From positions 1-39,999 of the forward strand of contig JAGCLA010000002.1 of the NCBI GenBank assembly GCA_017647225.1: a stretch of DNA of 39,999 nucleotides, written 5' to 3'. Shown piece after piece: positions 5,201-9,466 of the stretch (within the stretch, counting starts at the first letter, position 1; every line of letters begins with the position of its first letter). A program made the translations under genes and the position numbers. A model generated the notes under the pieces. The model saw nothing but the letters and a program-made list of their open reading frames with translations, had not been told where the DNA came from and did not search any database. The stretch comes from Bacteroidaceae bacterium. Its GTDB lineage: Bacteria > Bacteroidota > Bacteroidia > Bacteroidales > Bacteroidaceae.

Positions 5201-5917
5201 TTAGAATTGCTCTATTATTTGTGGGATATGTTCTATGCTGTTTGTAATGAATGTCGCTTCATTGCCTTCAACGACAGGCTCCTCTTCCCAACAGATATCC
5301 TTCAGCCAGATAGTTCTGCAACCGAGGGTGCTTGCAGGGTATATGTCCTTGCGGTATGAGTCGCCTATGACAACAATTTCCTGTGGCTTTAGTCCGAGTG
5401 CCTCTACGCCAAGCGCAAAAAGAGCAGGGTCGGGCTTACGCAAACCAACGACAGACGATTCGACTATCTCCTTGAAATATCCCGACAGGTTGAACTCTTT
5501 TAGTACAGTCGGCATATTCCCGTAAAAATTGGTTACCAGAACTATTGGGTAGCGAATTGACAGTTCCTCGATGACTTTGCATGCTGTTTTCAGGGTATTC
5601 TCCACATTCTTATAGCATGCGTCGGCTATCTCTACAGCCTTGCTCTCTTTGAATTCTGTTTCGGGCTGTGTGTCACGAAGGTAGTCGAAGTGAATGGCAA
5701 GTTTCTTCCTTAATAATGTATGGAATGTGTCTGTCGGCTCTATGACAGGGTTCTTTGCGAGAAAACGTTCGCCATGCACGTATGCTTCGCGGTATTTTTC
5801 GCGTGTGATGTCAATGCCGGCCTTCCTGTACTCCTCCCAGATGAATTCTCCCCAGTGTATTCCGTTGGTGTCTATAGTGCCACCATAATCGAAAATTATG
5901 CCCTTAATTGAATTCAT
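5201..5917 (-). CDS. HAD-superfamily hydrolase of the head-group cluster
   Basis: A 238-residue HAD-like hydrolase with a cap domain. Motif I is FDYGGTID with nucleophile D10. The second aspartate of the usual DxD is replaced by G12, a variant known in HAD subfamilies. Motif II is VTNFYG (T at the end of a strand near residue 129). Motif III/IV are the lysine of GLRKPDPALF and GDSYRKDI near residues 158-195. Its start overlaps the end of the CDP-alcohol transferase gene by 14 bases, so it should be co-translated. In this context it would dephosphorylate a polyol phosphate or phospholipid phosphate. The substrate is not decided by sequence. Fold assignment is secure; role is inference. Confidence 0.85.
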   Translation of the reverse strand: MNSIKGIIFDYGGTIDTNGIHWGEFIWEEYRKAGIDITREKYREAYVHGERFLAKNPVIEPTDTFHTLLRKKLAIHFDYLRDTQPETEFKESKAVEIADACYKNVENTLKTACKVIEELSIRYPIVLVTNFYGNMPTVLKEFNLSGYFKEIVESSVVGLRKPDPALFALGVEALGLKPQEIVVIGDSYRKDIYPASTLGCRTIWLKDICWEEEPVVEGNEATFITNSIEHIPQIIEQF

Positions 5918-6857
5918 AGCCCTCTTCTATTTTACGTGTCAATTTCTTACAGAGCGTCTCGTGTCTGTATTGGGTATAAAAGAATAGTGCCATGAGTATT
6001 ACCATCTCAAAGACGATGTAAAGCCATAGCTGCCCTATAAGCATTGTGATGCAGAGTGTTATTGCACGCGAATTGAATGTCAGTATGTTTGTGTATTTCA
6101 TCAGTGGCAGGCTGCCCTTGCGGAACTCCTGACGCAGTTGCTCGGGGATGTTTGTTCCGTACTTTGCGTGTACTACCTTTATGAACTTTTGGAAATTGGG
6201 CGACATTCTCTCCTGATTTTCAACATATGCCACATAGAAGAGAAGGAACAGCTTCCAAAAGAATGTTTTACGCCACGATGTGTTTTCAAACTCTTTCTTC
6301 TCCATTACCGAATTATGGAACTCGTTACCGTTCTTCTCGTTGCAGAAATACATGTGTATGTTCCTGTAATAGTCGGCAAGCTGGCATTGTGAGCCGTGTA
6401 TCCAAAAACCGCAGAATGACAATAGAATCCATATTATTACACCCCAATTGTATTCAGGGGCAAATGGTATCGGGCGGTCTGTCTCGCGTACGGCAATGGC
6501 AAGGTATATGAAGAAGAACCAGCAATCACCGGCAAAGCCGTCAAGAATGCGTCCCCATCGTGTCTTTTGTCCTGTGATACGTGCGAGCTGGCCATCGGCG
6601 CTGTCATACAGGTTTGCCCAAACCAACAACAGCATGCCGAACATGTTCCAGTATATGTTGTTCTGCATGAAACAGATACCTGCTGCAACGCCAAGAAAAA
6701 TCGAAGCAATGGTGATTATGTTGGGGTGAACGCCTCGGTTGCGGAAAAACAGCGCGCAATGGAAACCCAACGGGCGGTAGAACCACATGTCGAGAAGTTC
6801 CTCGGTATCGGCTGACTTTATCGACGCTCTGTATAACTCTTTGTCTTTCTCTTTCAT
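5904..6857 (-). CDS. CDP-alcohol phosphatidyltransferase-family membrane protein
   Basis: A 317-residue integral membrane enzyme that should move a phospho-alcohol from a CDP carrier to an acceptor. The family motif is visible at residues 85-111: D85-S-A-D88-G-Q-L-A-R93, eight residues, G102, D106. The fourth aspartate, expected at position 110, is a glycine, with D111 next to it. Hydrophobic segments lie near residues 47-63, 72-84, 112-122, 134-153 and 260-295. A long charged insert at about 165-255 sits in the middle of the membrane region, making the protein longer than PgsA or PssA. It starts one base after the ATP-grasp stop codon. The neighbouring nucleotidyltransferase suggests the donor is a CDP-activated polyol such as CDP-inositol. 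Confidence 0.88.
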   Translation of the reverse strand: MKEKDKELYRASIKSADTEELLDMWFYRPLGFHCALFFRNRGVHPNIITIASIFLGVAAGICFMQNNIYWNMFGMLLLVWANLYDSADGQLARITGQKTRWGRILDGFAGDCWFFFIYLAIAVRETDRPIPFAPEYNWGVIIWILLSFCGFWIHGSQCQLADYYRNIHMYFCNEKNGNEFHNSVMEKKEFENTSWRKTFFWKLFLLFYVAYVENQERMSPNFQKFIKVVHAKYGTNIPEQLRQEFRKGSLPLMKYTNILTFNSRAITLCITMLIGQLWLYIVFEMVILMALFFYTQYRHETLCKKLTRKIEEGYEFN

Positions 6858-6858
6858 A

Positions 6859-7674
6859 TCATTTGCTGTTCATTATGAATTCGGCAATTTTCTTCGCGGC
6901 TTCATCTCTTACCGGTGAAAAACTCGGGAAATCGTTCAAATCAATCAATTGTATATCTCCGTTGTTGTTGACGATGCAGTCGCCGCCATATATGTCAAGT
7001 CCTACGGCATTTGCAGCTTTTGTAACAATATCGCGCATCGTGTCAATGGAGAAATGGTAGTGCTTCGCTTCGCCGTTTATCTTCTCAAGCCCGAATTTCG
7101 TGCTGTCGGCAACAGGGTAGCAGTATGTGAAAAAGCTATTCTTGACACCGTAGAATTTGATAATGTCACCTTCGCAGTGGCTGGAATGTATAAAGCTGTC
7201 AACACCTCTTTGCATCATGCTGCCGATAACGTTCATTGCCTCTTCGCTGTTAGTGACATAAGATACATCGTCCTTATGGCAACTCCAGCCGTTTCCTCTT
7301 TTTATCCATGCAGGGAACCGAAGGCTATTGAAATTCTCGGTTTTTTCTACAACATGGAACTGTGGTTGAGGAATACCGTTTTTCTCTAATATGCGCATGA
7401 ACTCGATGCGTGAGCAATTTTCTACGGCCTCGGGTGAATTTATGACTTTTATACCGGCTCTTTCAGCCTCCTTCAACTTTTTCAAGACCTCGGGAGTCCT
7501 TGACATGTGGCACACAATGTCTGCGTTCTCAGGAATATCCTCAGTCGCGCCTATTGCCGAAACAACAGCACCCATTCTGCGGAGTTCTTCTGTTATACGT
7601 TCCAAAATGGCCGCGTCGTTCGTGGTCATGTTGGGGGAGTTCTCCGGGTTGCGTGCTATCGTTACGATTTTCAT
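6859..7674 (-). CDS. ATP-grasp enzyme, possibly a polyol (inositol) kinase
   Basis: A 271-residue soluble protein with an ATP-grasp layout. Residues 1-80 form a Rossmann-like domain. Residues 119-131 (RFPAWIKRGNGW) carry the nucleotide-binding lysine strand, D170-IIKFYGV a central strand, and D232 plus D245-L-N247 the Mg-binding strand. The end of that strand, DLNDFPSF, resembles the D-[IV]-N-x-F-P-G-Y ending of inositol trisphosphate 5/6-kinases, which share this fold. RimK-like ligases also fit. The start overlaps the nucleotidyltransferase stop by four bases. In this setting a kinase that supplies the phosphorylated polyol for CDP activation is the most economical reading, but amide ligation cannot be excluded. 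Confidence 0.75.
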   Translation of the reverse strand: MKIVTIARNPENSPNMTTNDAAILERITEELRRMGAVVSAIGATEDIPENADIVCHMSRTPEVLKKLKEAERAGIKVINSPEAVENCSRIEFMRILEKNGIPQPQFHVVEKTENFNSLRFPAWIKRGNGWSCHKDDVSYVTNSEEAMNVIGSMMQRGVDSFIHSSHCEGDIIKFYGVKNSFFTYCYPVADSTKFGLEKINGEAKHYHFSIDTMRDIVTKAANAVGLDIYGGDCIVNNNGDIQLIDLNDFPSFSPVRDEAAKKIAEFIMNSK

Positions 7675-8369
7675 CTTTCTGCAATAAATTGTTCTGCTTT
7701 GAGAATATCTTCAGCGTGGTCTATGTCTATTATCTTTCCAAGCGGAAATGCCTTCAGTTTCATGCCGCTCTCGACAAGACGTCGCTGGAAGTTACGCATG
7801 CGGTGTACGCCTTCCTCCATGCATTGGTCGAGAATATCCAATGCCTTTGGCGATAGTCCGTAAATTCCACCCGAAATGAATTTTGTTTCAGCTGTCGGTG
7901 TGTCGCAAAAAGCCGTTATTTGCATATTTTCGTCGGTGGCTATATACAAAGGCTTTTCGTCGTCGATGTAATCGGTAACAGCCATGATGCCGTCGCCCTC
8001 GAATTTCTCCAACTCCTTTATATAGTGCGCGAACTCATCTTCGTGGAAGAGAGTATCGACTGTTGTAAGGCAGAATTTGTCGCCACGCAGAAATTCACTC
8101 AATGCATGCATGCTGTGCATTGAACTTGGTGTGCTTTTGACAACGATGTTTATTTTGCATCCGGCATCGATGTTCCTGAGGAATTCTATTGTGTCCGGTT
8201 GCTTCTCGTTTACAATAATGCTTATGCTGTTTGCTCCGTTGCGGGCAAAAATCCTTATGAGGCGTTCTATTATGGGAACACCATTCAGCTCAACCAACGG
8301 TTTGGGCTTGACAACCCCTTCGTTGGCAAGTCTTGACCCCTCGCCGGCTGCTATTATTGCAAAATTCAT
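7671..8369 (-). CDS. Sugar/polyol-phosphate nucleotidyltransferase
   Basis: A 232-residue single-domain NTP transferase. The N-terminal signature AIIAAGEGSRL is followed by VKPKPLVELNG, the glycine-rich nucleotide loop and the lysine of the family. A TTVDTLF segment near residue 100 supplies the metal-binding aspartate, and the C-terminal IDIDHAEDI is the second metal-binding block. It has no hexapeptide-repeat C-terminal domain, unlike GlmU. The ATG at 8367-8369 is preferred over the TTG one codon upstream because it overlaps the pdxA stop (TGATG). Together with the downstream CDP-alcohol transferase it recalls the inositol-1-phosphate cytidylyltransferase/DIPP synthase pairing. The substrate is inferred from context. 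Confidence 0.88.
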   Translation of the reverse strand: MNFAIIAAGEGSRLANEGVVKPKPLVELNGVPIIERLIRIFARNGANSISIIVNEKQPDTIEFLRNIDAGCKINIVVKSTPSSMHSMHALSEFLRGDKFCLTTVDTLFHEDEFAHYIKELEKFEGDGIMAVTDYIDDEKPLYIATDENMQITAFCDTPTAETKFISGGIYGLSPKALDILDQCMEEGVHRMRNFQRRLVESGMKLKAFPLGKIIDIDHAEDILKAEQFIAER

Positions 8370-9466
8370 CAATCTTCGTTGTCTGCTTGTTGCAAGTTCA
8401 GGCGGTTGCTGTCATCGCGTTTCTCGAAATACATCTTACGCAACGGGTTACGGCGTGCGTAGTCGTACATATTGCGGTTGCGCTGTATGTCGATGGCTGT
8501 GTATATTGCCTGACGGAATGAGTTCTCGTCGGCAAGGCCTTTACCGGCAATGTCGAATGCTGTGCCGTGTGCAGGTGATGTACGTACAATAGGGAGTCCG
8601 GCTGTGAAGTTTACTCCGTCGTTCATGGCAAGAGCTTTCAGTGGTGCAAGTCCCTGGTCGTGATACATGGCGAGTATGGCATCGAAAGAGGCGTATTTGC
8701 CACTGCCCATAAAACCGTCAGCCGCAAACGGACCATAGCAGAAGATACCGTTGTCGTTCATCTTGCGTACTGTCGGCGCAATAACCTCCTGTTCTTCTGT
8801 TCCGAGCAAGCCGTTGTCGCCGGCATGAGGGTTGAGGGAGAGAACGGCAATTTTTGGAGCGTCGATGTTGAAATCCCTTTTTAAGCTGTCGTTCAACAAT
8901 GTCAGTTTCTCTTCAAGCAACTCGGGGGTGATTGCGTCGGGGATATCGCGCAAAGCCATATGTGATGTGGCTACGGCAACCTTCATGTCGCCGCTGCAAA
9001 GAATCATTAAAGCCTTGTCGCCTTCACCGCAACGTTCTTGCAGATACTCTGTGTGGCCGGGGAAACTGAAATCCTTGCTTTGTATGGCACTCTTGTTTAT
9101 TGGTGATGTGACAAGGACATCGATGTGTCCGTCCTGAAAATCCTTTATGGCTCTTTCGAGAGCCTGAAAAGCTGCCATACCGGCTTCGCCTGTTGCAACA
9201 CCCAACTCTATATGCAATTCGTCGCTGTTGCAGTTTATTATGTTCAATTTACCGGCCTGTGCCTCATTCGCATTGGCAATGGCATTATACGGTGTTTCCA
9301 TTTCAATGGCTTTGCGATGGTATGCCGCCGCTTTTGGCGAGCCATAGATAATGGGGGTGCATATATCGAACATCTCATGATTGTCGAACGTCTTGAAAAT
9401 TATTTCATATCCGACACCGTTTATATCGCCTTGTGTAATACCTACACGGATATTCTTATCGTTCAT
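8369..9466 (-). CDS. pdxA: 4-hydroxythreonine-4-phosphate dehydrogenase
   Basis: A 365-residue PdxA, close to the usual 330-residue length with a short C-terminal extension. It oxidises 4-phosphohydroxy-L-threonine in the DXP-dependent route to pyridoxal phosphate. Visible marks are the N-terminal GITQGDINGVGYEI, the metal and substrate site FPGHTEYL near residue 138, and AMYHDQGLAPLKAL near 270 with the conserved histidine. The C-terminal RTSPAHGTAFDIAGKG block is also typical. It lies 26 bases after the DUF4837 gene and its stop overlaps the nucleotidyltransferase start, so it links the housekeeping half of the operon to the lipid-type half. Confidence 0.97.
   Translation of the reverse strand: MNDKNIRVGITQGDINGVGYEIIFKTFDNHEMFDICTPIIYGSPKAAAYHRKAIEMETPYNAIANANEAQAGKLNIINCNSDELHIELGVATGEAGMAAFQALERAIKDFQDGHIDVLVTSPINKSAIQSKDFSFPGHTEYLQERCGEGDKALMILCSGDMKVAVATSHMALRDIPDAITPELLEEKLTLLNDSLKRDFNIDAPKIAVLSLNPHAGDNGLLGTEEQEVIAPTVRKMNDNGIFCYGPFAADGFMGSGKYASFDAILAMYHDQGLAPLKALAMNDGVNFTAGLPIVRTSPAHGTAFDIAGKGLADENSFRQAIYTAIDIQRNRNMYDYARRNPLRKMYFEKRDDSNRLNLQQADNED

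Follow-up and report, generated by a model that had tools for sequence, protein, structure and literature searches.

A compact four-gene cassette in a 39,999-nucleotide stretch of a Bacteroidaceae genome (GenBank assembly GCA_017647225.1, contig JAGCLA010000002.1; "the window" below means this whole stretch) encodes a nucleotidyltransferase, an ATP-grasp protein, a CDP-alcohol phosphotransferase relative (the transferase below), and a HAD hydrolase. By gene content the cassette is very probably the putative alternative inositol-lipid cluster described by Heaver et al. in 2022 (PMC9246714), with one more gene. That additional gene, encoding the ATP-grasp protein, recurs as regularly as the other three and has been overlooked by the published scheme, and features of its sequence suggest that the product is, on balance, probably a kinase acting on an inositol phosphate. 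The locus itself is of a known kind; its noteworthy part is the constant fourth gene, with the consequences that this gene has for the pathway.

Gene content, conservation, and linkage to inositol-phosphate synthase

Heaver et al. describe the alternative cluster as a nucleotidyltransferase, a CDP-alcohol transferase, and a HAD hydrolase that mostly adjoin a gene for inositol-phosphate synthase (MIPS), and report it as common in Prevotella, where it is the commoner cluster type, with the functions of its enzymes left unconfirmed (PMC9246714). A 2023 review gives the same scheme as an in silico prediction (PMC10191378). Production of phosphoinositol dihydroceramide was shown for B. vulgatus and P. 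veroralis in the former study, which also describes an influence of gut Bacteroidota inositol lipids on fitness in the host (PMC9246714), and P. copri likewise produces this lipid (PMC10865984).

The window cassette encodes the same three enzyme types together (nucleotidyltransferase, PF01066 protein, and HAD hydrolase) and in the same order. MIPS, which need not adjoin the cluster, is found on contig C27 (PF01658, E 1.8e-35), outside the window and next to ArgR- and ArgC-like open reading frames (ORFs) rather than in a cluster, as judged by eye; the genome (2.13 Mb, 56 contigs, 88% complete) gave no other synthase match, and P. copri also has its MIPS apart from the cluster. An earlier sequence-only reading of this DNA had proposed that the head group carries the CDP, that the head group is inositol, and that an inositol-lipid route proposed for Prevotella may be at work. 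That route is the Heaver et al. alternative cluster, the match to which supports CDP on the head group, while inositol is supported by the gene content of that cluster together with the linkage to MIPS. The inositol reading is thus supported and largely known already. The window cassette and its relatives differ from the published description in having an ATP-grasp gene between the first 2 genes, in 35 of the 38 related loci, and in incompletely keeping the quoted transferase search motif (...GX3DX3D).

We compared the cassette across a sample of 295 genomes of the order, the window's own included. The ATP-grasp protein was matched in 41, strongly so in 39 (G019 and G029, with E values of 5.7e-5 and 1.9e-4, were left out), and the 38 strong genomes other than the window's own supplied the related loci, in which gene assignments with less than 28% identity were dropped, except for MIPS. 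The transferase was matched in 65 of the 295, and 43 matches with E < 1e-40 were kept. The order nucleotidyltransferase, ATP-grasp, transferase recurs in 35 of the 38 related loci, which argues that it is not due to chance. The exceptions are a locus whose contig is cut before the nucleotidyltransferase (L106), a genome with the cluster in pieces (L096 and L109), and genome G139 (L102), where the ATP-grasp gene precedes a cluster like BT_1522-1526 (BT-like), with a PhinosDhcerSyn match above its cut-off and a PIPSynBT1523 match below. HAD is present in 35 of the 38 loci and MIPS lies within the fetched locus in 29. The nucleotidyltransferase and ATP-grasp genes are fused in 3 loci (L072, L104, and L107, the last 2 from one genus), and in 1 the fusion takes in the transferase as well, giving a protein of 821 residues (L101).

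A phylum-level sample of 395 genomes yielded 54 with a match, among which 12 new strong ones were read (13 loci), 3 were already known, and 39 were weak (E 8e-9 or above) and left out. The nucleotidyltransferase and ATP-grasp genes occur in all 13 loci, and 12 of these also have the transferase and HAD. The exception comes from G684, whose set is in two parts: the nucleotidyltransferase is found with ATP-grasp (L152), and the transferase with HAD and MIPS (L156). This split and the fusions point to 2 modules in the cluster, the nucleotidyltransferase pairing with ATP-grasp and the transferase with HAD.

The locus tags that Heaver et al. give for B. vulgatus, RS13095 for the nucleotidyltransferase, RS13105 for the transferase, and RS13115 for HAD, leave one tag between each (PMC9246714). 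This spacing fits the order nucleotidyltransferase, ATP-grasp, transferase, LPG_synthase_TM, HAD that is seen in many loci. An LPG_synthase_TM relative is present in 17 of the 38 related loci, and the window genome has one such gene, on contig C51. Neither "grasp" nor "RimK" appears in the main text of Heaver et al., where the one use of "kinase" is in the title of a reference (PMC9246714). Among open-access papers, a search to which most subscription papers were external, we found none naming an ATP-grasp protein or inositol-phosphate kinase in the alternative cluster and none testing its enzymes.

MIPS is strongly associated with the ATP-grasp gene, being present in 35 of the 39 ATP-grasp genomes, whereas among the remaining 256 it occurs in 14 (Fisher p 1.4e-29, a guide value since the genomes are related). 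The sequence-only reading had suggested checking whether genomes with the cassette lack or keep the synthase, and this outcome goes against its proposal that the ATP-grasp protein stands in for one. When 10 genomes were searched with the MIPS of the window genome, it was found in G684 and G422 and not in G289, G211, G293, G270, G484, G142, G039, or G121. The first 5 of these MIPS-less genomes carry the cassette (G211 is 86% and G293 89% complete).

We searched these 5 and 11 hand-picked MIPS-bearing genomes for PfkB kinases, setting aside matches of 50 bits or less. The PfkB kinase whose best PDB match is the proven myo-inositol kinase TM0415 (E 4e-26) has relatives in 5 of the 5 MIPS-less versus 3 of the 11 MIPS-bearing genomes (Fisher p 0.026), at identities to this PfkB kinase of 29% in G270, 45-100% in the other MIPS-less genomes, and 52-57% in the MIPS-bearing ones. 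In G484 and G270 (L109) the PfkB gene directly follows HAD, in the position of MIPS; phmmer found it in no other cluster locus scanned, and in G258 it adjoins MIPS. TM0415 converts inositol and pyrophosphate to inositol 1-phosphate, and its archaeal relative MI3K uses ATP and produces inositol 3-phosphate (PMC5931981). Counted on the alignment, the G289 protein keeps N78 and L116 of the TM0415 acceptor site, with I76 changed to F and S89 to Q, and the pyrophosphate residues are altered (R229 to A, R232 to C, and F221 to Y, so that 2 arginines are gone), which makes ATP the likelier donor. MIPS-less species may accordingly phosphorylate imported inositol with PfkB while retaining ATP-grasp and HAD. 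The presence of PfkB in genomes that lack MIPS and keep ATP-grasp suggests that the ATP-grasp enzyme acts on something other than free inositol, and a role for it as a MIPS substitute is not supported. The sequence-only reading was thus right that the synthase lies outside the window; its further suggestion, that a kinase on free inositol fills the gap, does not hold up against the MIPS on C27 and the PfkB genes of the 5 MIPS-less genomes.

Predicted properties of the four enzymes

Alignments were made of 36 ATP-grasp, 32 nucleotidyltransferase, 34 transferase, and 34 HAD rows, hand-picked from 42 loci to the exclusion of truncated, fused, and doubtful copies. The ATP-grasp protein of the window matched no Pfam model at 1e-3. 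Its NCBIfam matches, to RimK (E 1.9e-10), MptN (E 7.4e-12), and LysX, are all far below cut-off, the RimK family model TIGR00768 reaching 40.6 bits against a curated 143.4. The top PDB match by phmmer is ITPK1 (2odt, E 4e-4), and that of a profile of the family is an inositol 1,3,4-trisphosphate 5/6-kinase (1z2n, E 1.2e-9), entries that we take to be from human and Entamoeba. The protein carries the motif D245-x-N247-D248-x-P250-S251, and this D-x-N metal-site motif is shared by all 36 aligned copies and all 17 additional ones, while the ligases 7drm, 7qyr, 5zct, and 4iwx have E-x-N at this place, as compared over the chains in the printed alignments. The predicted structure (pLDDT 91.7) has the ATP-grasp fold expected of an ITPK-type kinase. 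Likeness to ITPK1 and PF05770 (Ins134_P3_kin) thus extends to the fold, to D-x-N followed by P-[GS]-[FY], and to the best PDB sequence matches. Matches to PF05770 in 5 of the 36 members (best E 6.4e-6) speak for a kinase. The kinship is remote, and the window protein, below the reach of that model, gives no match at 0.01. Kinases of this type are described from eukaryotes and Lokiarchaeota (PMC8024741).

A PDB search with the nucleotidyltransferase profile returned the inositol-phosphate cytidylyltransferase IPCT (4jd0, 2xme) and the DIPP enzyme 4mnd, with sugar-nucleotide enzymes ranking first. We considered choline, ethanolamine, and sugar head groups; the profile lists enzymes for phosphocholine, glucose, mannose, heptose, and inositol and does not decide by itself, and it is the linkage to MIPS that favors inositol over the others. 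The di-myo-inositol-phosphate route, formed by IPCT and DIPP synthase with MIPS upstream, resembles the cassette in the succession of a cytidylyltransferase and a CDP-alcohol transferase. It differs in having a soluble product and neither ATP-grasp nor HAD, and other enzymes match the cassette nucleotidyltransferase profile better than IPCT does. All 32 rows share residues R13, K23, and D105, with a spacing resembling that of R16, K26, and D112 of Thermotoga IPCT (PMC12275187), a pattern that supports the prediction of a nucleotidyltransferase and is not specific to inositol. Another parallel is CpgD of Caulobacter, a proven phosphoglycerate cytidylyltransferase that is required for a bacterial sphingolipid and likewise provides a CDP-activated head group, in this case for a ceramide lipid; the head group is a different one, and terms for CDP-alcohol and ATP-grasp enzymes are absent from the main text of that study (PMC12275187).

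The transferase profile is nearest to AF2299 (E 4e-13), followed by CEPT1 and CPT1, then DIPP synthase, and then phosphatidylinositol-phosphate (PIP) synthases, all of these other matches being weak. In reactions of CEPT1 and CPT1 the CDP sits on the head group. The window protein reads D85-SA-DGQLAR...G102-RIL-D106-GFA-G110-D111, and D85, D88, G89, A92, R93, G102, and D106, the first 7 positions of the DX2DGX2AR...GX3DX3D motif, are invariant in 34 of 34 rows. The sequence is that of a PF01066 relative and predicted CDP-alcohol transferase with an altered motif, in which the last Asp is displaced by one position.

The BT-like cluster (BT_1522-1526) has the same end products and the same first step, MIPS, as proposed for the cassette. 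It differs in placing the CDP on the lipid, for a PIP synthase (BT_1523), and in having a PIP phosphatase (BT_1525) and a phosphoinositol dihydroceramide synthase (BT_1522). No BT_1523-like gene was seen in the window genome, where PF01066 matches only the cassette gene and one other (L005), which by eye adjoins a phosphatidylserine decarboxylase-like ORF. One PAP2_3 match is above cut-off in the genome (C37, 31.4 bits versus 27); this ORF has 234 residues, against the 305 positions of the phosphoinositol dihydroceramide synthase model, and lies downstream of TPR and Bat-like ORFs, again by eye.

The HAD protein has motif I as D10-x-G12-x-T14, with D10, G12, T14, and D16 invariant in 34 of 34 rows, rather than the canonical DxDx[TV]. 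Its other motifs are of the expected kind, with motif II reading VTN in the window protein (Ser/Thr), and K161 (motif III) and the acidic motif IV (GDS...D; G185, D186, and D191) invariant in 34 of 34. A phosphatase, although not of the textbook type, is possible from these residues, and E. coli YihX is an active phosphatase with Gly at the place of the second Asp.

Candidate pathway and competing explanations

We propose that the cassette produces phosphatidylinositol and/or phosphoinositol dihydroceramide by way of an activated head group. MIPS, encoded elsewhere in the genome, would give 1D-myo-inositol 3-phosphate (step 1), the ITPK-like ATP-grasp kinase would put on a second phosphate (step 2), and the nucleotidyltransferase would convert that second phosphate to a CDP group, yielding CDP-inositol phosphate (step 3). 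The transferase would then pass phospho-inositol-phosphate to diacylglycerol or dihydroceramide (step 4), and HAD would strip the remaining phosphate to leave the inositol lipid (step 5). What the analysis shows is the gene content and gene order, the fusions, the co-occurrence with MIPS, the PfkB kinases of the MIPS-less genomes examined, and the family assignments. Which substrate each enzyme takes, and in what sequence steps 2 to 5 run, are predictions, and the findings fit the order of phosphorylation, activation, transfer, and dephosphorylation that the sequence-only reading had proposed. We hold the five-step explanation as a whole tentatively, as the likeliest of the readings but at rather less than even chances; the placing of HAD as the last step comes close to an even call, and the existence in Bacteroidota of a CDP-inositol-phosphate route made up of an ITPK-like kinase, CTP activation, an altered-motif transferase, and HAD dephosphorylation is possible and rather doubtful. 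The model would explain the joint occurrence of a kinase-like gene and HAD, the pairing of the nucleotidyltransferase with ATP-grasp and of the transferase with HAD, and the appearance of an inositol kinase where MIPS is missing.

Several features of the proteins weigh against this pathway. The last Asp of the transferase motif is replaced by Gly in 34 of 34 aligned and 13 of 13 further copies, followed by Asp in 27 of the 34 and 2 of the 13 and by Asn in 7 and 11, while BT_1523-like genes keep this Asp in 4 of 4. Since this is the motif by which the cluster was found, the absence of its last Asp lowers our confidence in the identity of the cluster. According to Heaver et al., a search for that motif led to the B. 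vulgatus gene (PMC9246714), which implies either that the B. vulgatus gene differs here or that the full motif was not required. The usual second Asp of HAD motif I is Gly throughout, D-x-G-x-T being found in 13 of 13 further copies as well, and the predicted fold of the ATP-grasp protein is slightly nearer to RimK ligases (VIA-align).

One competing explanation relocates the phosphate, with HAD removing the 3-phosphate of the MIPS product, ATP-grasp re-phosphorylating the inositol elsewhere (such as D-1), and CDP-inositol leading to the lipid directly, with no phosphorylated lipid intermediate. It would account for the adjacency of HAD and MIPS in many loci and for the 8 of 13 phylum loci (L141-L148) that hold relatives of the L141 Gfo/Idh and class III aminotransferase proteins, which would need free inositol. 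Inositol monophosphatase (PF00459), which 14 of 14 control genomes have, was not found in the window genome, a weak negative at 88% completeness, so that another enzyme would make free inositol there. However, HAD is retained in the MIPS-less genomes, which also carry a PfkB inositol-kinase relative that would be unneeded, and HAD stays with the transferase both in the split cluster (L156) and in P. veroralis, where Heaver et al. describe a HAD-transferase fusion (PMC9246714), leaving relocation rather unlikely. The ATP-grasp protein might instead be a RimK-like ligase that couples either the head group or a lipid to an amino acid, the inositol route being as published. This would explain the fold ranking, yet D-x-N replaces E-x-N in 53 of 53 copies, the gene adjoins and fuses to that of the cytidylyltransferase, and the lipids reported from cluster-bearing species are plain phosphoinositol lipids with no free amine (PMC9246714, PMC10865984); we consider a ligase unlikely.

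In the model proposed by Heaver et al. (PMC9246714), the nucleotidyltransferase uses the MIPS product, the transferase makes phosphatidylinositol on diacylglycerol, and HAD is the phosphoinositol dihydroceramide synthase; ATP-grasp would then be an accessory. Thermotoga IPCT does use inositol 1-phosphate (PMC12275187), and a HAD protein without its second Asp suits something other than an ordinary phosphatase. This model nevertheless leaves no role for a gene as constant as the other three, and a HAD step would be superfluous if CDP-inositol gave up its head group directly to ceramide. HAD enzymes, moreover, normally act on phosphate monoesters, not lipid phosphodiesters, and we regard the published scheme as improbable in this form. 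Far less probable still is phosphorylation of free inositol by ATP-grasp in the absence of a synthase, as the sequence-only reading had it: the only synthase match does lie outside the window, but the genome has it, the co-occurrence with MIPS is strong, and the MIPS-less genomes examined have a PfkB kinase.

If the five-step pathway is correct, it would add a third way of making phosphoinositol lipids and would give a bacterial inositol-phosphate kinase a metabolic job, overturning the published claim that the alternative route has no phosphorylated-lipid intermediate. A likely inositol-phosphate kinase makes the pathway testable, with a phosphorylated inositol lipid predicted upon deletion of the HAD gene, and with the ATP-grasp protein a kinase family so far known from eukaryotes and Lokiarchaeota would gain a bacterial relative.

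Gene layout and variant clusters

Table 1. The cassette and the gene overlapping its front, in order of transcription.
Product	Position	Strand	Evidence
pdxA, 4-hydroxythreonine-4-phosphate dehydrogenase	8369..9466	-	TIGR00557, 364 bits, cut-off 290
Nucleotidyltransferase, predicted inositol-phosphate cytidylyltransferase	7671..8369	-	PF00483 NTP_transferase, E 3.7e-13
ATP-grasp enzyme, predicted inositol-phosphate kinase (ITPK-like)	6859..7674	-	Remote PDB matches, D-x-N motif
CDP-alcohol phosphotransferase relative, predicted to transfer (phospho)inositol-phosphate from CDP to lipid	5904..6857	-	PF01066, E 1.9e-12, above cut-off
HAD hydrolase, predicted to dephosphorylate the lipid product	5201..5917	-	PF00702, E 1.3e-16

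The tight packing that the sequence-only reading had reported for the 4 genes is confirmed by the junctions as read in the sequence: the nucleotidyltransferase and ATP-grasp genes overlap by 4 bases (ATGA), a 1-base gap leads to the transferase, and the transferase and HAD overlap by 14 bases. The nucleotidyltransferase starts at the ATG at 8369 (the ORF list begins at a TTG at 8372) and has 1 base of this ATG in common with the end of pdxA, making a run of 5 genes. The nearest named relatives, 3 Bacteroidaceae metagenome-assembled genomes from water buffalo and roe deer (L007-L009), have the same five-gene run, and pdxA is upstream of the nucleotidyltransferase in 15 of the 38 related loci. 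We do not think of pdxA as a pathway member; the first enzyme of sphingolipid synthesis is a pyridoxal phosphate (PLP) enzyme, and this need for PLP may or may not be the reason for the position of pdxA at the head of the cassette.

Variants of the cluster were seen in several genomes. The G139 locus is a hybrid (L102, 134-4968), in which ATP-grasp is followed by genes resembling BT_1524 (by match to L124-L126), PIP synthase, and phosphoinositol dihydroceramide synthase, and then by MIPS, with no extra ORF of at least 100 residues in between and without the small gene that lies beside MIPS in L124-L126. In G142 (L108, 6756-9552), what is left of the run is pdxA and a 44% identical CDP-alcohol transferase, followed by an IspD-like gene; no nucleotidyltransferase, ATP-grasp, or HAD relative is present in L108 and no MIPS in the genome, and G028 and G237, of the same genus, both have the full set. 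The G039 locus (L119) was considered as a cassette without ATP-grasp and rejected, since its fused ORF matches the transferase from residue 93 only, past most of the motif; we read this ORF as decayed.

A sister cassette surrounds a CDP-alcohol transferase of 37-40% identity in L110-L114, L116, and L117, with relatives of the L110 CTP_transf_like and short-chain dehydrogenase genes and an acyltransferase, and with an LPG_synthase_TM gene in L110, L112, L113, and L117; it probably serves another CDP-activated head group. In other Bacteroidota the cluster is extended by MlaE, ABC ATPase, and MlaD relatives (L141-L147 and L149; 4437-15674 in L141), by a class III aminotransferase and a Gfo/Idh protein (L141-L148), and by a second, tandem ATP-grasp copy (L141-L144), where the proteins of L141 were scanned and those of the other loci assigned by match to them. 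The best NCBIfam model for the L141 Gfo/Idh protein is TIGR04380, inositol 2-dehydrogenase, below cut-off, and this cluster possibly makes an amino-inositol lipid with its own transporter. Elsewhere in the window, positions 31-2025 hold a pyruvate formate-lyase-like ORF and, after it, one resembling a radical-SAM activating enzyme, as judged by eye from the ORF list.

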